From assembly GCA_012729455.1 (NCBI GenBank), contig JAAYDC010000020.1, positions 1 through 62,866 of the forward strand: DNA of 62,866 bases, in the 5' to 3' direction. The position numbers and the translations under genes were made by a program. The notes below the pieces were generated by a model. It was not told the DNA's origin. It did no database searches and saw only the letters and a program-made list of their open reading frames with translations. Source of the stretch: Chloroflexota bacterium (lineage in GTDB: Bacteria > Chloroflexota > Anaerolineae > UBA1429). The first letter of the stretch is position 1, and every line of letters begins with the position of its first letter. Shown piece after piece: positions 9,263-22,163 of this stretch.

Positions 9263-11323
9263 TCAGTCGAGGTAGAGCGCGAACATGCGCAGTGTCTCGA
9301 GGGTGGGCACGCTAAAGACGACCGCGTCATCCTCCAGGCGATACGCCCAGGCCTTTTCATCCGGCAGGAGCTGCAGGGCGCGCACGGTCTTGCCGCAGGT
9401 ATCTGCCCGTACCTCGATGTCGTTGACCGGGATATTGGGCAGGTCCTTCTGAAAGTTCACCAGGCTGATGATCATCCGCCCACGGTCGGGTTGCCGGTAG
9501 CTGGTGACCTCGACGGCTTTGGGTGCGCAGGTGCTCACACTAAAAGGTCCCGCCAGCAGGCGCATCCATTCCGCAAAGGTGTCGCGATGCATATCGGCAG
9601 CCTCGATCGTGCCGGTGCAGTAGAGGCACATGCCCTTGCCAAAGTGGTTCAGGATCAGGGCAGGGTGCTCGCTGGGGATGCCCGGCGGGTTGGAATGGAT
9701 CGAGGCATAGTGGCGCGGGTCACTCGGCAGGGTATAGGGCAGGGTGAGGGTGCCCAACACCTCGGCGCCATCATGGGCACGCACAATCACCTGGGCCTTG
9801 TCGAGGCCAAGGGGCCACTGCACGCTGTAGCTGGGGAAGTAAGCCTCGCCAGCCTTGGTCGGCGCTATATAGGTGAACGTCTCAGCGGTTTTGCCCTCAT
9901 ACGAGGCGCCGAACACATCGGCGAGCATAAAGTCGCTCTGACGCTGGCCGTCGTTGCGCAGCGCACTGGCGTCGCCGCTGGCGTACAGGATGCCGCCCCC
10001 GCGCACCCACTCGCGCAGGGCGTCTGCTTCTTCTGCAGATAGTGTCAGCATGTTGGGCAGCACGATCGCCTTGAATTTGTTCAGCTCGCCAAGCGAGTTG
10101 CGTGTGAACACTCCGTAAGGGATGTGCTCCTCCGCCAGGGTGCGTGCGGCCCGGAATATCGCCTGCAGGTGCGGTGCCTCCCACGAGAGGGTCGGGTCGT
10201 CGATCTGCTTGCCGGAATCGGACGGGTCGTACTTGGCTTCCGTGTTCAGGTAGATGCCGACATCCTGCACCTGCTGTCCGCCCACAAAGCGCTCATAGGG
10301 CTTGGTACGCTCAAACACACACCTCATTGTCTTATAGATATCTGGGTTGATCGTGCCGATCGGGTCGATAGCGTCGATGAACAAAAATGCGCTGGAATCG
10401 GCCAGGCAGGCTGATGCCTTGGCTTCCAGCAGTTCGGGGCTCTTTTTAGCGGTATGGTTGTTCAGGTTGATGGCAAAGGTGGTCATGAATTCTTGCGGCA
10501 GGTTGGGGCTGAGGTTGTGGAAGAGCTTGCGTACCACCGAGCCCTCCAGAGAATCGCCATAAAAGTCGCCGCCGACATAGTCGCTAGCCTTGGCCAGGCG
10601 CTCGGTCACGGCTGTGCGCCAGCCTAGAGGATAGGTCGAGCCCTGGTGCTGCACCGTCACGCCAGGGGCGGCCTCGCGCACCACATTGGTGATCTCCATA
10701 GCAAACTCGTTCAACCAGGCTTCGCGCTTGCGCTGGAAGGTAACCCAAACAGGGTTCTCCCAGTTGACGGTGGTGGGCAACTCGGAGCCCATCTCGGCTT
10801 TGAAGCGTTTGCGGCAATATTCGCAATAGCACACATTCGGCCAAAAGGTCATATCCAGAAAGATGCCTTCGAACTGGTACTGCTGGCACAGCTCGCGCAC
10901 ATGCGCGGCGGAGTAGGCGCGGTGGGGCGAGTTGGGGCAGCACAGGCCATAACGGCTGGCTTCTGCAACGCCCTCGCCGTTTGGATGGCGCATGCGCCAG
11001 TCGGGCTGATGGCGGTATTGGTAGTCGTCATAGATCAAGGTGAAATAGGTGATGACTGGGATCCCGCGCTTATGAAAACCCTCCACCACCGGCCCAAAGA
11101 TGTCGCGCCCTTTGAGCGCTTTGTGCTGGTGCCCGATTTGCGTGGGATAGTAGCACAAGCCCACGTGCGAGTTGGCATATACCATGGCGGCATCCGCTTG
11201 GGCAGAACAAACCGTGTCGACATAAAAATCCGGGTCGAAACGCGAAAGAAACTGGTCGTTCCAATCGGTGATGTGCATGTCGATCAGATTGCGGCGAAAA
11301 GAGTGTTGATACCATTTGCTCAT
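9263..11323 (-). CDS. GHL6-like glycoside hydrolase with beta-galactosidase trimerisation-type domain
   Basis: 686 residues, ATG behind AGGAGG. The N-terminal TIM-barrel-like part (residues 1-330) has the look of the hypothetical glycosyl hydrolase GHL6 family: an invariant-looking FEGIFLDMTFWP segment, an adjacent CYCEYCRKRF cysteine cluster, and HQGSTYP. The region about residues 380-600 resembles the class-I glutamine-amidotransferase-like trimerisation domain seen behind GH42 barrels (KAIVLPNMLTLSAEEADALR). No signal peptide, so it is cytosolic and would act on imported oligosaccharides. Substrate unknown; alpha-L-fucosides or galactosides are plausible by analogy only. It has its own strong promoter. 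Confidence 0.8.
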   Translation of the reverse strand: MSKWYQHSFRRNLIDMHITDWNDQFLSRFDPDFYVDTVCSAQADAAMVYANSHVGLCYYPTQIGHQHKALKGRDIFGPVVEGFHKRGIPVITYFTLIYDDYQYRHQPDWRMRHPNGEGVAEASRYGLCCPNSPHRAYSAAHVRELCQQYQFEGIFLDMTFWPNVCYCEYCRKRFKAEMGSELPTTVNWENPVWVTFQRKREAWLNEFAMEITNVVREAAPGVTVQHQGSTYPLGWRTAVTERLAKASDYVGGDFYGDSLEGSVVRKLFHNLSPNLPQEFMTTFAINLNNHTAKKSPELLEAKASACLADSSAFLFIDAIDPIGTINPDIYKTMRCVFERTKPYERFVGGQQVQDVGIYLNTEAKYDPSDSGKQIDDPTLSWEAPHLQAIFRAARTLAEEHIPYGVFTRNSLGELNKFKAIVLPNMLTLSAEEADALREWVRGGGILYASGDASALRNDGQRQSDFMLADVFGASYEGKTAETFTYIAPTKAGEAYFPSYSVQWPLGLDKAQVIVRAHDGAEVLGTLTLPYTLPSDPRHYASIHSNPPGIPSEHPALILNHFGKGMCLYCTGTIEAADMHRDTFAEWMRLLAGPFSVSTCAPKAVEVTSYRQPDRGRMIISLVNFQKDLPNIPVNDIEVRADTCGKTVRALQLLPDEKAWAYRLEDDAVVFSVPTLETLRMFALYLD

Positions 11324-15144: not shown

Positions 15145-17790
15145 ATGAACAGCTCCGAAATTCGCAGCCGCTTTTTGGCGTTTTTCGCTGCCCATGGGCA
15201 TACCATCGTGCCGAGCGGCTCGCTGGTGCCCGGCAATGACCCGACCCTGCTGTTTGCCAATGCTGGCATGGTGCAGTTTAAGGATGTGTTTGTCGGCCTT
15301 GAACAGCGTCCCTACAAACGGGCGGTAACGGCACAAAAGTGTATGCGCGTCTCTGGCAAACATAACGACCTCGAGACGGTGGGCCCTTCGCCGCGTCATC
15401 ACACCTTTTTTGAGATGCTGGGCAACTTTTCGTTTGGCGACTATTTCAAGCGTAATGCCATTATCCTTGCCTGGCAGTTCCTTACCGTAGAGCTGCAGCT
15501 CGACCCGCAGCGGCTCTGGCCGACGGTGTACCTCGACGACGACGAAGCCTTTGCGCTGTGGCAGGAGATCGCCGGCATGCCGGCTGCGCGCATTTCGCGC
15601 CTCGGCCGCGAAGATAACTTTTGGACGATGGGCGATACGGGCCCCTGTGGGCCGGATTCCGAGATCATGTACGACCGTGGAACCCAGTATTGTACCTGCC
15701 ATCGTGACGACTGCAGCCCCGCTACCGGATGCGACCGCTTTCTCGAGATCTGGAACCTGGTCTTTATGCAGTTCGAAGCCCTGCAGGACGGCTCGGTTGT
15801 GCCGCTTCCCAAGCCCAGCGTGGATACCGGCTTGGGGTTGGAGCGCATCACTTCGATCCTGCAGGGGGTCGATAGCAACTATGGTACCGACCTCTTTATG
15901 CCGATCATATTAAAGGTGCAGAGCCTGCTCGGGCATAGCGATGCCCAGCGCCTTGCCAACCCGACCCCTTATCGCGTGATCGCCGACCACTCGCGCGCGC
16001 TGGCGTTTCTGATTGCCGATGGTGTACTGCCCGGCAACGAAGGCCGCAGCTATGTGCTGCGCATGGTGCTCAGGCGGGCGGCGCGCTACGGGCGCATGCT
16101 CGGCTTCCAGCAGCCGTTTTTGGCCGAGACGGTGCAATCCGTCATCGACCTGATGGGCGGACATTACACCGAGTTGGTCGCGCGGGCCGATTTTATCCGC
16201 CAGGTGGTGACGCGCGAAGAGGTCCAGTTCCTCAGCACACTCAGCCAAGGGCTGGTGCGCCTGGATGAAGTGGTAGCGCGTGTGCGTACTGCCGGCGAGA
16301 CGGTCATCCCTGGCGCGGAGGCCTTTCGCCTTTACGATACCTATGGCTTTCCGCTCGAGCTGACGCGCGACGCTCTGGCAGAAAGCGGCATGACGGTGGA
16401 TGAAGCCGGGTTCCGCCAGGCTATGGCCCAACAAAAGGAGCGTGCCCGCTCTGCCAAACAAACCAGCCTGGGGGCGGCGGCCGATATCTACCAGCACCTC
16501 GGCTTGGCGCCCAGCCAGTTCACCGGCTATGCCGGCACCTCTGGCGGCGGTACGGTCGTGGCCATGCTCAGCGATGGAAAAGCGGTTGACCGCATCAGCG
16601 CCGGCCAGGAGGCTGAAGTAGTGCTCGACAGCACTCCCTTTTACGGCGAATCGGGCGGCCAGGTGGGAGATAGCGGCTGGCTGCGCACCGAATTCGGCAG
16701 CGCGCGCGTGCTGGATACCTACCACCCGATAACATCCATCACCACGCATCGTATAAGCCTGGAAGAAGGCTCGCTGGCCGTTGGCGACCAGGTGCAGGCC
16801 GAGGTCGACTGTGAAAGGCGGCTCGACATCGCCCGTAACCACACCGCCACCCACCTTTTACACCGCGCACTGCGTCAGGTGTTGGGCGAGCACGCCGCAC
16901 AATCCGGCTCACTCGTCACCGACCAGGTGCTGCGCTTTGACTTTTCGCACCTGCAGGCGCTCTCGGCAGACGAGTTGAGCGAGGTCGAGGATCGCGTAAA
17001 TGCCGCGATCCGCGATGCGCGTCCAGTCTTCACCGAGGTGATGCCCTACGACCAGGCCATCCGCGGCGGTGTGGTGGCGCTCTTTGGTGAGAAATACGGC
17101 TCGGAAGTGCGGGTGGTTAACGTCGAGGATTTCAGCGCCGAGTTGTGCGGTGGTACGCATGTGCGTAATACGGGCGAAATCGGCCTGCTGTTGATCACGT
17201 CCGAGGGCAGCATCGGGTCAGGCTTAAGGCGCATCGAAGCCGTGACTGGCCGTGCCGCTCTGCAGTTAGTGCGCTCCCGCAACCAGACGATGCTGGACAT
17301 GCGCCAAACGTTGGGTGCCAAGGCTGGGGAGGAGCTGCGGCGTACTCAAGCTCTGCTCGTTGAGTTGGAGCAGGCGCGCCGGCAGTTAGAGGCCGACCAG
17401 CGCCAGTTTGCCGAGGCCGAGGTCGATCGGCTGCTCGAAAGCGGCCGCGAGATTAACGGCGTGTATCTGCTGACAGTCCAGGTGCATGCGTCTTCGGCCG
17501 AAGCGCTGCGCGAGATGGCCGACCGCTTCTGCGACAAGTTTGGTTCCGCAATTGTGGCTTTGGGCGCGGTCATCAACGGAAAACCGCTCCTGGTGGTCTC
17601 TGTGACGCCGGATGTGATCGCCCGCGGCGCGCATGCCGGCCAGATGGTGGCAGCTGCCGCCAAGGAAGTAGGCGGTGGGGGCGGCGGTAAGCCCAATATG
17701 GCACAGGCGGGCGGACGCGACCCTGTCCGGCTGCCGGATGCTCTGGCCAAAATAACGGCTCTTGCCGAGGCCGTGCTCTCGCAGGTATAA
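15145..17790 (+). CDS. alaS: Alanyl-tRNA synthetase
   Basis: 881 residues, close to the usual 875, behind AGGAGG. Class II synthetase with the N-terminal aminoacylation domain (FANAGMVQFKDVF is motif 1-like), an editing domain with zinc ligands His566 and His570 (HTATH) and Cys668 plus His672 (CGGTH), and the C-terminal oligomerisation/DHHA1 region ending in GGGGGGKPNMAQAGG. Charges tRNA-Ala and hydrolyses mischarged Ser or Gly. It follows clpX by 43 bases. Confidence 0.98.
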   Translation: MNSSEIRSRFLAFFAAHGHTIVPSGSLVPGNDPTLLFANAGMVQFKDVFVGLEQRPYKRAVTAQKCMRVSGKHNDLETVGPSPRHHTFFEMLGNFSFGDYFKRNAIILAWQFLTVELQLDPQRLWPTVYLDDDEAFALWQEIAGMPAARISRLGREDNFWTMGDTGPCGPDSEIMYDRGTQYCTCHRDDCSPATGCDRFLEIWNLVFMQFEALQDGSVVPLPKPSVDTGLGLERITSILQGVDSNYGTDLFMPIILKVQSLLGHSDAQRLANPTPYRVIADHSRALAFLIADGVLPGNEGRSYVLRMVLRRAARYGRMLGFQQPFLAETVQSVIDLMGGHYTELVARADFIRQVVTREEVQFLSTLSQGLVRLDEVVARVRTAGETVIPGAEAFRLYDTYGFPLELTRDALAESGMTVDEAGFRQAMAQQKERARSAKQTSLGAAADIYQHLGLAPSQFTGYAGTSGGGTVVAMLSDGKAVDRISAGQEAEVVLDSTPFYGESGGQVGDSGWLRTEFGSARVLDTYHPITSITTHRISLEEGSLAVGDQVQAEVDCERRLDIARNHTATHLLHRALRQVLGEHAAQSGSLVTDQVLRFDFSHLQALSADELSEVEDRVNAAIRDARPVFTEVMPYDQAIRGGVVALFGEKYGSEVRVVNVEDFSAELCGGTHVRNTGEIGLLLITSEGSIGSGLRRIEAVTGRAALQLVRSRNQTMLDMRQTLGAKAGEELRRTQALLVELEQARRQLEADQRQFAEAEVDRLLESGREINGVYLLTVQVHASSAEALREMADRFCDKFGSAIVALGAVINGKPLLVVSVTPDVIARGAHAGQMVAAAAKEVGGGGGGKPNMAQAGGRDPVRLPDALAKITALAEAVLSQV

Positions 17791-17797
17791 TTGCGGC

Positions 17798-19072
17798 ATG
17801 AGTTTTATGGCGAATATCATGAACCCCGTCAAAGGGTTGCTGACACGGTTGTTCAACTCGCGCAACCTGGCAGCCAACGCTTTCTCGCGCCACAGTCTGA
17901 TCACCTGGAGCGAAGGCAGCGTTCAGGCATGCATTGCCCGCTTTAACAACGGCTCTGCCGAGTTACTGGGCGTGGCCAATAGCCTGGTGAACGGCCTTGA
18001 GACGAGCGGTAATCCCGATATGGATCGTTGGGGCTTTGGCTGTGAGCAGGCCTTGCACCAGGCTGAGGAAATGACCCACGCCGAGGGTGGTACGCGTGTC
18101 GTTTCGGACCATCTGGCGCTCGGCATCCCCTGCGACCTCGTGCAAGCCATGCCCCTGGTCGTTACCCGCAATCGGCGCGGCCAAAACGACCCGATCGGCC
18201 GCATGGAGATCCAGGCACTGCTGGATCGCGGTTACTGCGAGGCCAGCGATTCGCTCGATATCCAGAACTCCAGGCTGCAGATCGTGCACAGCACCATCGG
18301 GCAGTTTCGCCTGGATGGACAGGTGGTTGCCAACCCGCTCGGGCTGCACGGCTCTGAACTTGAGGCTTCGCTCTACTTTTCGCTCTTGCCGCTCGAGTGG
18401 CTGCGTGCCAGTCAACGCCTGGCGCAGCAGCTCCTCGTGCAGGTTAGCCTGCTAGTGCCCGAAGAGGTCGCTCTGGCTAACTATATCAGCGACGAATCAG
18501 CCTGGCTGGTAATCCTGGACTATCACTATACCCTGATCGGCCTGGTCGCCGGCGGGCAGCTTTACTGGTCGAGCAAGATACCGATCGGCGAACGCGAGAT
18601 CATTGCCGATGCCGGGCGTATGATGGCGATGCAGGGGCGCGAGGTGGACGTGCTGATGCGCACCTACCGCGAGGGGCGCCTCTCCGAGGAAGCCGAAAAC
18701 CGCCTGGCCAGGGCGTTGTGGTATCACCTGAGGCGCTGGATGTCGACCCTGGCGCAGGAGGCGGCGGACGTCCTTGCCAACCTGCCAGAGCAGCCTGAGC
18801 GTATGTACTGGATCGACCAATCCGGCAACCTGAGCGAAGCGCAGGATGCGTTGCGCACTCAATTGTGGGCTCAGCTGATGGGCGGCGACAGCGCCCCGGA
18901 GATTGTCGAACTAGAGACGACACGTGTATCCGAGATCATGGATTGCACTGCTCAGACCAACAGCCCCGTATATACCCTTACACGGGCAACCGCCCTGACG
19001 GTAGCGCGTATTACCAGCAATACCGATAAATGGGATTGGCGGTTGTTGCAGAGTGTACGCAAGTTGGGATAG
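17798..19072 (+). CDS. Degenerate actin-fold protein, FtsA/PilM-like
   Basis: 424 residues from the ATG at 17798; an in-frame earlier start would overlap alaS. The pattern follows FtsA/PilM: an opening beta-hairpin (SLITWSEGSVQACIARF, then AELLGVANSLV) where FtsA has its first phosphate loop and GVG strand; a second hairpin (AWLVILDYHYTLIGLVAGG) where phosphate loop 2 should be; and a late MYWIDQSGN where the adenosine motif GGG should be. In all three places the Asp-Ile-Gly/Gly-Gly residues that bind ATP are missing, so this is probably a pseudo-actin scaffold. It is followed by a single-span baseplate-J-like protein, ruvX and mltG with short gaps or overlaps. Assignment rests on pattern, not on a database match. 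Confidence 0.6.
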   Translation: MSFMANIMNPVKGLLTRLFNSRNLAANAFSRHSLITWSEGSVQACIARFNNGSAELLGVANSLVNGLETSGNPDMDRWGFGCEQALHQAEEMTHAEGGTRVVSDHLALGIPCDLVQAMPLVVTRNRRGQNDPIGRMEIQALLDRGYCEASDSLDIQNSRLQIVHSTIGQFRLDGQVVANPLGLHGSELEASLYFSLLPLEWLRASQRLAQQLLVQVSLLVPEEVALANYISDESAWLVILDYHYTLIGLVAGGQLYWSSKIPIGEREIIADAGRMMAMQGREVDVLMRTYREGRLSEEAENRLARALWYHLRRWMSTLAQEAADVLANLPEQPERMYWIDQSGNLSEAQDALRTQLWAQLMGGDSAPEIVELETTRVSEIMDCTAQTNSPVYTLTRATALTVARITSNTDKWDWRLLQSVRKLG

Positions 19073-19087
19073 GAAATCGGAGGATCG

Positions 19088-20593
19088 TTGGTAACCGCGA
19101 ATGTGCTCTATCTGAGCCAGCACGATACCCTCGACGCGATTCGGTCGTATATGCGCACGTTGCCGGTGGGTACGCAGCTGTGGCTGGTTGCCCCGATTCT
19201 CTCGCGCACTTTTGATAGTTTGGTCAACCTCAAACTGCTCAAGCGAGCTGCGGATGCCGCCGCGCTGGACCTGCGCCTGGTGTCCTTGCGCGGCCCGGTA
19301 CGTTTGCTTAGCCGCGAGGCAGACATCCCCACCTATTTGTTCCTGCCGCTCGGCCTGGTATCTACCACCAAACGCACCCTGCGCGGGTCAATGACCGAGC
19401 GCCAGTACCAGGTGTCTGAACGCCGTGCACGCTTCTATGCCGACAAACCGCTCGTCCGAGGCTTTAGTGCCGCCACGCTGACGCTGGCGGCGACCGTGCT
19501 GGTGATCGCTATTGTGGGCATGGCGGCTGCGGTATTTGTCCCCAGCGCCACCATCAACCTGCGCCCGGTGACCGCCAGAGTAGCAGGCTACTTTCCGGTG
19601 CAGGCCGATACGCGCTTCCAGGAGCCCGACCTTGAGCGCCTGGTGATCCCAGCGCGCAGCCTGGAGCTGGTGGTCGATGGGCATGGCGATATTGCCACCA
19701 CCGGCCGCTCTGATATCCCTGACGGAGTCGCCGAGGGCAGTGTCGTTTTTACCAACAAGACCGGCGATGAAGTGGCCATCCCAGTCGGCACGATTGTGCG
19801 TACCGCGGGCGAGGTACCGGCGCGCTTTCGCACCACCGAGACGGTCTCGGTGGCGGGCGGTGAGGGCAACACGGTGCGCGCGGCGGTGGTCTCGGTTGAT
19901 CCGGGACCCAGCGGTAACGTGGATGCCCAAACCATCAAGGAGGTCGAGGGAGTTCTCGGCACTCAGGTAATCGTCGATAACGATGCCCCGACAGGCGGAG
20001 GCTCGTTGCGCAGTGTGGCAACAGTCGGCTTTGACGATTTCAACCGTCTGCGCACCCAACTCAGCAACCAGCTGCGCCAGCAGGCCTTTGATTCGATCAA
20101 CGCCAACCTCGCAGAAAGCGAATATGTGCCGCCTTCAACAGTCGAGGTGCAGATCCTCTCCCAAACCGGAGATCAGGTGGTCGATCAGCAGGCAGAGCGC
20201 CTGGGCATGACCATGAAGCTACGCGTGCGCGCCATGGCGGTGGATGTTGAGTCGCTGCGCCTGATCGCCAAGGCCTTCCTGGAGCACCAGGCCGGCGGTA
20301 CGGGCGAGGTAATCCTGGATAGTGTCGATGTGCAGCTTTCTGGCGAGGTGCGCACGGTCGGTACCGCGCTCGAGTTTGGTGCACAAGCCAGCGGCGAGTT
20401 GGGTCCGCGTATCGATGTAGAAGCGGTACGCCAAGAGATCCAGCGCAAGACGCCCGACGAGGCTGCCCAGCTGCTGAGCGAGGAATACCAGCTGGCAGCG
20501 CCGACTGAGATTATCCTGGAACCGGATTGGTGGCCGTTCCTGCCGATTATTGACCAGCGCTTAAAGATCTTTGTGCTCGCGCCCAAACCATGA
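19088..20593 (+). CDS. Single-span membrane protein with baseplate-J-like extracytoplasmic domain
   Basis: 501 residues, from a TTG start behind GGAGG. Residues 1-125 form a cytoplasmic domain with a Rossmann-like look (strands TQLWLVAP and LDLRLVSL). One transmembrane helix spans about 127-151. The outside part (152-501) has the hallmarks of baseplate J/gp47-like proteins: FTNKTGDEVAIPVGTIV, PGPSGNVDAQTI and repeated beta-rich stretches. In phage this fold is structural; in Chloroflexota and other monoderm-like lineages such proteins recur next to ruvX. The topology, cytoplasmic domain plus one helix plus extracytoplasmic domain behind an actin-like protein, recalls PilM-PilN. It ends overlapping ruvX by four bases. 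Confidence 0.7.
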   Translation: MVTANVLYLSQHDTLDAIRSYMRTLPVGTQLWLVAPILSRTFDSLVNLKLLKRAADAAALDLRLVSLRGPVRLLSREADIPTYLFLPLGLVSTTKRTLRGSMTERQYQVSERRARFYADKPLVRGFSAATLTLAATVLVIAIVGMAAAVFVPSATINLRPVTARVAGYFPVQADTRFQEPDLERLVIPARSLELVVDGHGDIATTGRSDIPDGVAEGSVVFTNKTGDEVAIPVGTIVRTAGEVPARFRTTETVSVAGGEGNTVRAAVVSVDPGPSGNVDAQTIKEVEGVLGTQVIVDNDAPTGGGSLRSVATVGFDDFNRLRTQLSNQLRQQAFDSINANLAESEYVPPSTVEVQILSQTGDQVVDQQAERLGMTMKLRVRAMAVDVESLRLIAKAFLEHQAGGTGEVILDSVDVQLSGEVRTVGTALEFGAQASGELGPRIDVEAVRQEIQRKTPDEAAQLLSEEYQLAAPTEIILEPDWWPFLPIIDQRLKIFVLAPKP

Positions 20594-21021
20594 GTGCGAT
20601 CCTGTCCCTCGACGTTGGTGACGAGCGCATCGGTGTGGCGATCTCTGATGAGACGCTCACCCGCGCGCGTCCGCTGGCGGTGATCCGCCGTGTCTCGGGC
20701 AGAGCCAGCTATCTGCAACTGCTCGAATTGATCAACATTCATGCGGTTGAGCGGATCGTGGTGGGTTGGCCGCTTCTGCCCGATGGAAGCGAGGGCAAAC
20801 AGGTGCGTTCGGTGCAGGCTTATCTCAACGGTTTGGCGGTTTATACCAGCCTGCCAGTGGTATGCTGGGATGAACGCCTCTCGACTAGCGAGGCCAGCGA
20901 ACTCTTACGTGCCGGCGGCGGTTCGCGGAAGCGACAGGCCTCTAGGCTCGATGCGGCGGCCGCGGCAGTCATATTGCAGCAATATCTGGACGAACGAAAC
21001 GAAAGGTTGCGCGAACCATGA
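20590..21021 (+). CDS. ruvX: Putative pre-16S rRNA nuclease / Holliday junction resolvase RuvX (YqgF)
   Basis: 143 residues. RNase H-fold nuclease starting with SLDVGDERIGVAISDE, whose Asp is catalytic. The GWPLLPDGSEGKQ segment and WDERLSTSEA supply the other conserved acids, and the late DAAAAAVILQQYL is typical. YqgF matures 16S rRNA in E. coli and has been proposed as a resolvase. Overlaps both neighbours by ATGA, so it is translated in one unit with the baseplate-J-like protein and mltG. Confidence 0.93.
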   Translation: MSAILSLDVGDERIGVAISDETLTRARPLAVIRRVSGRASYLQLLELINIHAVERIVVGWPLLPDGSEGKQVRSVQAYLNGLAVYTSLPVVCWDERLSTSEASELLRAGGGSRKRQASRLDAAAAAVILQQYLDERNERLREP

Positions 21022-22163
21022 GAGCCGTTCGTATTTTCCTGCGCATCGTGTCTTTGGTGGTGGGTATCTCGGCAGTCGTGATCGTACTGTCGACTGCCCT
21101 GGTGTATTTGCTGCGCGATGCCGAGACGTGCTCACCCAAGCAAGGCTATGTGGTTACCACCAATACGATCGAGCGCTCAATTTTGTGGGTGTATTTGCAG
21201 ATGCATCGCGACGAGATCGATGTGCCTGCCGATGCTGAGGATGCTACCGTAACCGAGTTCACTGTCGATGAAGGCGAAAGTCTCAACTCGGTGTCGATGC
21301 GCCTGAGGTATAACGGGCTCATTAATAACGCCGATCTGTTTCGCCGTTATGTGCAATACCATGGCAGCGATGTAGGCATCCAGGCTGGGTCGTTTGCGCT
21401 GCGGCGAGATATGACGATCCAGCAGATTATGAAGGAACTGCAGTTTGGGCAAAAGCTGTCCTTCTCGGTGACCATCGTAGAAGGCTTGCGCGCCGAAGAG
21501 ATCGGTGCTTTGCTGGAAGCCTCGGGCATCTGCAGCGCGCAAGAGTTTGTCAGTATCGTCTTACAGGGCAGGGTGCCGGCAGATTTTATCGGTGAACGGC
21601 CAGAAGGCGGTTCCACATCGCTCGAGGGCTTTTTGTACCCGGATACCTATGAGCTGATCAAAAACTCGCCCGCTGACGATGTGGTGTTGAAACTGCTCGA
21701 TAACTGGGATAGGCGCGTACCGAGTGAGTTGCGCGACCAGGCTGGGTCCAACGGGCTTACCCTCTACCAGACGGTGATCCTCGCGTCGATCATCGAGCGC
21801 GAGGCGGTCGTCGCCGACGAGATGCCCACCATCGCGAGTGTCTATATTAACCGTCTGCGCCAGTCGATGCATCTGCAGGCTGACCCGACCGTACAGTATG
21901 CCAAGGGACTGCAGGTAGGTACCTGGTGGCCGCCTCTCACCACCGAAGACCTACAGAGTGTGCAGAGCACCTATAACACTTATGTGCACTTTGGCTTGCC
22001 CCCCGGGCCGATCTGCAACCCCGGCATTGATGCGCTGCAGGCTGCCCTCAATCCAGAGAGCACTGACTATATATACTTTGTTGCCAAGGGCGATGGCACC
22101 CACGCTTTTGCCACCACCTTCGAAGAACATCTGGCCAATATACAGCAGTATGCTGGCCAATAG
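21018..22163 (+). CDS. mltG: Endolytic transglycosylase MltG
   Basis: 381 residues. One N-terminal transmembrane helix (about residues 8-32) is followed by a LysM-like subdomain (about 70-130) and the YceG catalytic domain. The catalytic glutamate is Glu260 in ASIIEREA, matching the family's ASIVExE. It cuts nascent peptidoglycan strands and probably sets their length. RuvX-MltG adjacency is common in bacteria. Confidence 0.95.
   Translation: MRAVRIFLRIVSLVVGISAVVIVLSTALVYLLRDAETCSPKQGYVVTTNTIERSILWVYLQMHRDEIDVPADAEDATVTEFTVDEGESLNSVSMRLRYNGLINNADLFRRYVQYHGSDVGIQAGSFALRRDMTIQQIMKELQFGQKLSFSVTIVEGLRAEEIGALLEASGICSAQEFVSIVLQGRVPADFIGERPEGGSTSLEGFLYPDTYELIKNSPADDVVLKLLDNWDRRVPSELRDQAGSNGLTLYQTVILASIIEREAVVADEMPTIASVYINRLRQSMHLQADPTVQYAKGLQVGTWWPPLTTEDLQSVQSTYNTYVHFGLPPGPICNPGIDALQAALNPESTDYIYFVAKGDGTHAFATTFEEHLANIQQYAGQ

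Follow-up and report, generated by a model that had tools for sequence, protein, structure and literature searches.

Gene organisation of the locus

The window, a stretch of 62,866 nt from a Chloroflexota bacterium of the class Anaerolineae, is contig C16 of a genome of 2.64 Mb, which is 99% complete. Four consecutive open reading frames of the initial annotation were confirmed at their positions, specifying protein A (424 aa), protein B (501 aa), RuvX (143 aa) and MltG (381 aa). A fifth gene, alaS, had not been included there, yet it is part of the conserved order; its stop lies at position 17790, directly upstream of the gene for A. The genes are as follows:

15145..17790, plus strand: alaS, an open reading frame; first gene of the kept order alaS-(A)-B-ruvX-mltG, found beside A-B in the majority of loci in class and phylum
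17798..19072, plus strand: protein A, 424 aa, FtsA/PilM-like actin fold with SHS2-type insert, nucleotide motifs lost (AlphaFold2 prediction, fold matches, Pfam and TIGR models)
19088..20593, plus strand: protein B, 501 aa, bitopic, with a Baseplate_J-like ectodomain (AlphaFold2 prediction, one transmembrane segment, Pfam PF04865)
20590..21021, plus strand: ruvX (YqgF), intact-looking (Pfam RuvX, E 6e-38)
21018..22163, plus strand: mltG (YceG endolytic transglycosylase), one N-terminal transmembrane segment, intact-looking (Pfam YceG, E 1e-86; TIGR00247 above cut-off)

Translation of A possibly starts at the in-frame ATG at 17819, where the nearest orthologue begins, and B starts with TTG preceded by GGAGG. 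The ATGA overlaps described before are present between B and ruvX (20590-20593) and between ruvX and mltG (21018-21021). Both family assignments are strong, with 130.6 bits in Pfam and 94.1 bits to TIGR00250 (cut-off 43.25) for RuvX, and 290.9 bits in Pfam and 243.6 bits to TIGR00247 (cut-off 103.4) for MltG.

Fold and family assignment of protein A

The structure of A was predicted with AlphaFold2 using 39 orthologues (pLDDT 91.3, pTM 0.89). Among the closest folds was FtsA 7q6g with a Z score of 29.2 and an rmsd of 3.7 over 355 residues; FtsA structures gave Z scores from 24 to 29, PilM structures 24.4 (2ych) and 20.6 (5eou), and MreB followed behind both with about 16. By its predicted structure, A is a member of the FtsA/PilM branch of the actin fold, SHS2-type insert included. 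The FtsA/PilM outline recognised earlier was therefore borne out, and a fold other than actin was not obtained.

Sequence models placed A less clearly. The match to Pfam SHS2_FTSA (E 3e-5) is slightly below the cut-off of that model, and the match to the FtsA equivalog TIGR01174 (E 1e-5, 24.8 bits) is below its cut-off of 175.85. An orthologue with intact nucleotide motifs reached 118 bits with TIGR01174 (E down to 4e-34), still below this cut-off, and 39 bits with the PilM model. No match of A to PilM_2 (PF11104) or pilM (TIGR01175) was found up to E 1; PilM_2 gave weak matches in six of the 39 orthologues. A has no membrane segment, and scoring of its terminal helices for membrane targeting by hydrophobic moment gave mixed values. 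On the features tested, A shares properties of the fold with both PilM and FtsA but cannot be assigned to either family.

A is an extra actin relative in this genome. An own FtsA is encoded beside ftsZ in the dcw cluster on contig C8, and a second FtsZ and two MreB proteins were detected; identity of A with the FtsA or MreB of the genome was rejected, since these are found elsewhere. The two FtsZ copies are located on C12 (6552-6836, L139) and C8 (56399-56680, L140), and only the latter was seen beside ftsA. At locus L088, the gene for canonical FtsA (9363-10595) is accompanied in the dcw cluster by murC, murB, ddl, an FtsQ-like gene and ftsZ, all named from their sequences, and the C-terminus of canonical FtsA forms a strong amphipathic helix with a moment of 0.93. 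A could be a second division protein that has taken over part of the septal role of FtsA, perhaps together with the second FtsZ. FtsA as the best family model and the presence of two FtsZ genes would fit, but with a normal FtsA adjoining FtsZ, and with A lost from many relatives in the class that have B, we consider this very improbable.

Loss of the ATP motifs

The nucleotide motifs were compared in an alignment of 52 A proteins. WSEG (residues 37-40), DYHYT (241-245) and QSGN (341-344) occupy alignment columns holding DxGT, DxGG(G)T and GGGS in orthologues, so that replacement of the ATP loops in all three places, as suspected from the single sequence, is visible column by column. Most members of the window's family have, in addition, lost a fourth contact, the pair E284/K287 of intact orthologues. 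The affected positions are:

17903..17917, plus strand: former phosphate-1 loop, residues 36-40, TWSEG (intact: D-x-G-T), from the alignment of 52 A proteins
18512..18532, plus strand: former phosphate-2 loop, residues 239-245, ILDYHYT (intact: D-x-G-G-x-T-T), from the same alignment
18647..18658, plus strand: former nucleotide-contacting helix, positions 284 and 287 (intact: E..K; mostly D and M in the window's family), the contact being assigned by analogy to FtsA
18815..18823, plus strand: former adenosine loop, residues 340-342, DQS (intact: GGG; D340 is fixed in the window's family), from the same alignment

Intact motifs are found in other classes, for example DIGTEYAKALV, DVGGGTTDIALV and GGGSALP, and, within the window's own class, in the majority of families with A. 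D36, G38, D239, G241, E284, K287, G340, G341 and G342 are conserved to 87-100% in the intact proteins and changed in most or all of the window's family, in which tryptophans 37, 78, 201, 257 and 308 are newly conserved. As far as the alignment tells, the loss is lineage-specific, other lineages of the phylum having ATP-competent-looking orthologues at this locus. Since these retain the motifs, A is not a new kind of actin on account of its lost loops.

Besides the window's family, the families f8, f18 and f23 are without ATP motifs. In a tree of alaS, the four families group with f42 with an SH-aLRT support of 94. The tree of A requires up to three changes to account for the motif loss, and a single loss was not rejected (p-AU 0.216); one event would thus be allowed by this tree, not demonstrated. 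In f42 (L125, L129, L134, L138), the gene for A is gone entirely, which makes this family a possible end point of a path from active actin over ATP-less actin to loss.

A decaying gene for A was considered and rejected on the basis of dN/dS and of the A/B identity ratio. Between L047 and L049, two closely related loci with ATP-less A, dN/dS of A is 0.05-0.09 and thus similar to the values for alaS, B and mltG; in intact pairs it varies from 0.05 to 0.31. The identity ratio is 1.01 in the window's family, A being as conserved as B, versus 0.77 in intact lineages. Loss of the ATP motifs is accompanied by tighter constraint on the remainder of A. In the window's family, the substitution pattern indicates that the motifs are lost under strong selection, with new fixed residues in the old pocket.

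Domain layout of protein B

For B, an AlphaFold2 model with a pLDDT of 90.9 and a pTM of 0.54 was obtained, the latter value leaving the mutual arrangement of the domains unsure. Three parts can be delineated:

19088..19363, plus strand: cytosolic alpha/beta N-terminal domain, residues 1-92 (about), proposed docking site of A; in 61 of 61 loci with A, absent from ten loci without A
19484..19540, plus strand: transmembrane helix, residues 133-151 (hydropathy 2.74; helix 125-150 in the AlphaFold2 model)
19718..20005, plus strand: baseplate-J-like beta domain, residues 211-306 (Z 14.9 against the phiCD508 baseplate protein 9gb2_G, with 91 residues aligned)

The outer part has a further C-terminal region beyond the baseplate-J-like domain. 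The match to Baseplate_J (PF04865) has an E value of 1e-7 and, with 31.8 bits, is above the cut-off of 21.1. Together with the membrane helix and the fold match, it confirms the layout proposed initially, a cytoplasmic domain, one helix and a baseplate-J-like outer domain. B shares the fold of phage Baseplate_J/gp6 and passes the Pfam cut-off for this family, but only residues 211-306 match well, the domain is held by a membrane helix, and the neighbouring genes are alaS, ruvX and mltG, not tail genes. Searches of PDB and Pfam with the N-terminal domain yielded chance matches only and no known family. Its fold resembles LpxH with a Z score of about 6, a common arrangement, and neither an enzymatic motif nor a known signalling family was found in it.

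Distribution of A and B in Chloroflexota

Of the genomes sampled, roughly nine in ten of the class and seven in ten of the phylum have B. It was detected in 127 of 130 good Anaerolineae genomes, while high-scoring A was found in about 42 of 199 genomes of the class. In the phylum survey, 182 of 251 genomes harbor B and about 70 have A. The scores of A in these start at 171 bits and are well separated from those of FtsA, which do not exceed 114 bits. A contig profile scan with a narrow sequence set revealed named relatives of B at 14 loci, all in Chloroflexota and mostly in Anaerolineae. Being more widespread and often alone, B is the core and A an optional partner. Twenty genomes with B had no strong match to A; in one of them (L123), B is preceded by a diverged A, and most others have B immediately after alaS.

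Where A is present and both genes are on the contig, A is directly upstream of B on the same strand with a gap of 0-390 bp. In the window's family, A was found in 15 of 15 genomes, and every locus fetched has the order A-B-ruvX-mltG. The order alaS-(A)-B-ruvX-mltG recurs across Chloroflexota, with or without A, also in other classes. In family f7 (L053, L056), A, B and ruvX are together although neither alaS nor mltG is in the region, which suggests that A-B is a unit of its own. On the alaS tree, the distribution of A requires at least six gains or losses; since A always takes the same position, this is most simply explained by A having been present early and lost repeatedly. The neighbourhood survey envisaged in the initial annotation has thus shown a tightly kept pair, and for A the separation that would have spoken against the proposal was not observed. 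A literature search revealed no description of the A-B pair.

Association of A with the N-terminal domain of B

All 61 loci with A, 41 in the class and 20 distinct ones outside, specify a B protein with the N-terminal domain. In ten loci of families f63 and f96, B has a basic, unstructured-looking tail instead, and A is absent. Outside the class, the association is significant with a Fisher p of 1.5e-4, a value not corrected for kinship, and as loss of the domain was seen in two families only, the rule rests on few independent events. The reverse rule fails, the domain occurring also without A. Decay of the domain upon loss of A was tested and not seen; it is no less conserved without A. Apparently, the domain serves a function independent of A and has further partners.

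The possibility that A and B share a neighbourhood only, carried along with unrelated roles in the alaS-ruvX-mltG string, would agree with the frequent occurrence of B alone and with the lack of decay just described. Against it, A always adjoins B, even in f7 without alaS and mltG nearby, and is confined to loci in which B has the N-terminal domain; we regard mere neighbourhood as quite improbable.

Residual distances of A, given alaS, correlated best with those of the N-terminal domain of B (r 0.51), followed by RuvX (0.38), the B ectodomain (0.34) and MltG (0.22). A tracked the N-terminal domain over the ectodomain in 400 of 400 subsamples, over RuvX in 97%, and over MltG in all. The ectodomain, in turn, correlated best with MltG among the other genes of the operon (0.50). 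All operon genes show positive residual correlations, so that this co-variation is suggestive only. As a correlation, the pattern would fit docking inside and action outside, and the sequence comparisons taken together suggest that A may dock on the cytosolic domain of B.

B-like proteins in family f70

In f70, which belongs to another class, the cytosolic domain and the membrane helix of B are separated by a low-complexity linker of some 400-500 residues (L186, 7346-10024; L208, 7511-10504). Tandem B-like paralogues were also found in this family at L204 (2097-10305), L206 (6743-9430), L207 (1284-9308) and L212 (8942-11407), two of these arrays being followed by a ribonucleotide-reductase small-chain-like gene. 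Several of the paralogues consist of a Ser/Thr kinase, one helix and a baseplate-J-like ectodomain. The kinase paralogues thus show the outer domain to be a movable module joined to varied cytosolic parts, which supports a sensing or anchoring role.

PASTA-type Ser/Thr kinases such as PknB and PrkC offer a layout for comparison. The f70 paralogues share with them the succession of kinase, one helix and outer domain, but B at the present locus is without kinase, and its outer domain is baseplate-J-like, not PASTA. B could accordingly be mainly a receptor or sensor, with the outer domain reading the state of the wall or surface, the cytosolic domain relaying it and A regulating the output. Fusion of the same kind of ectodomain via one helix to protein kinases, in tandem arrays, speaks for such a role, as does the wide occurrence of B without A, with the N-terminal domain conserved there. 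The kinase paralogues, however, are encoded elsewhere in the genome with no A adjoining, and the searches revealed neither enzymatic motif nor signalling family in the N-terminal domain of B. We judge a main function in sensing to be rather unlikely.

Comparison with known actin-bitopic systems

A resembles FtsA, the partner of FtsN, in fold and SHS2-type domain, and it is likewise encoded beside a one-helix membrane protein. It differs from FtsA in scoring below the equivalog cut-off, in being located outside the dcw cluster and in the loss of the ATP motifs in the window's family. The actin modules of GspL/EpsL and BfpC do without the usual ATP role. In these proteins, actin-like domain and membrane helix are combined in one polypeptide; here, two genes are involved, A has no transmembrane segment, and some orthologues at this locus look ATP-competent. 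In GspL/EpsL of type II secretion and in BfpC of type IVb pili, a cytosolic module with a PilM-like actin fold is connected to a membrane scaffold (PMC4471445, PMC3984277).

With PilM-PilN, the pair shares the actin-like fold (Z 24.4 to 2ych) and a bitopic partner, but B differs from PilN in its additional cytosolic domain and its baseplate-J-like ectodomain. An inner-membrane platform of the PilM-PilN or GspL type, serving a pilus or secretion machine, could explain the PilM match, the bitopic protein encoded next door and the precedent of such machines using PilM-like actin folds in proteins other than PilM (PMC4471445, PMC3984277). Several results argue against it. A PilN model matched nothing in the genome, although it is insensitive, matching only two of 14 control genomes; FtsA models outscored PilM models for the intact orthologue, 118 versus 39 bits; the genes next to the pair include none recognised as belonging to a pilus or secretion machine; and B has no PilN-like layout. 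A platform of this kind is of low probability. Of the PilM-PilN-like scaffold proposed in the initial annotation, the actin-like A, its tight linkage to B and its restriction to loci with the N-terminal domain remain, whereas B is not PilN-like and no PilN was found with the insensitive model.

A putative membrane scaffold

Going beyond the computed folds, gene order, motif loss, selection and restriction of A to B with the N-terminal domain, we infer physical docking, a function at the wall and a possible link to MltG. A and B might form a Chloroflexota membrane scaffold in which cytosolic, actin-like A is linked via B to the wall side, independently of ATP in the window's family; the chances for this model are about even. 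B would span the membrane once, offering its cytosolic alpha/beta domain as a docking platform for the FtsA-type A, and the baseplate-J-like outer domain would have its site of action on the side of the wall, perhaps close to peptidoglycan or MltG. Docking or polymerisation of A would probably be ATP-gated in the lineages that keep the ATP motifs, which are the majority of those with A. In the window's family, A may now be a nucleotide-independent scaffold or adaptor, as are GspL and BfpC relative to PilM.

Of the earlier proposal, the connection to MltG has the least support. In other bacteria, alaS, ruvX and mltG are near each other as well, and adjacency to ruvX-mltG is therefore weak evidence of a shared role; the position of A-B next to mltG may reflect inherited gene order only. 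A more far-reaching version, a cytoskeletal link of Chloroflexota's own in which an FtsA-derived actin on a baseplate-J receptor steers wall cleavage, one family having turned the ATP-driven partner into a fixed, ATP-free scaffold, appears doubtful.

The best reading of the sequence comparisons is that A-B constitutes a real, phylum-wide module, which would work like an actin-bitopic scaffold. If A docks on B, a further pair of this type would stand beside FtsA-FtsN and PilM-PilN. ATP-competent-looking and ATP-less orthologues at one locus would allow the contribution of nucleotide binding to such scaffolds to be tested cleanly and, should the steering scaffold be true, would offer a natural before-and-after comparison of the role of ATP in a bacterial actin. 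The pair would also give a first handle on the organisation of the wall machinery in a phylum with little cell-envelope genetics.
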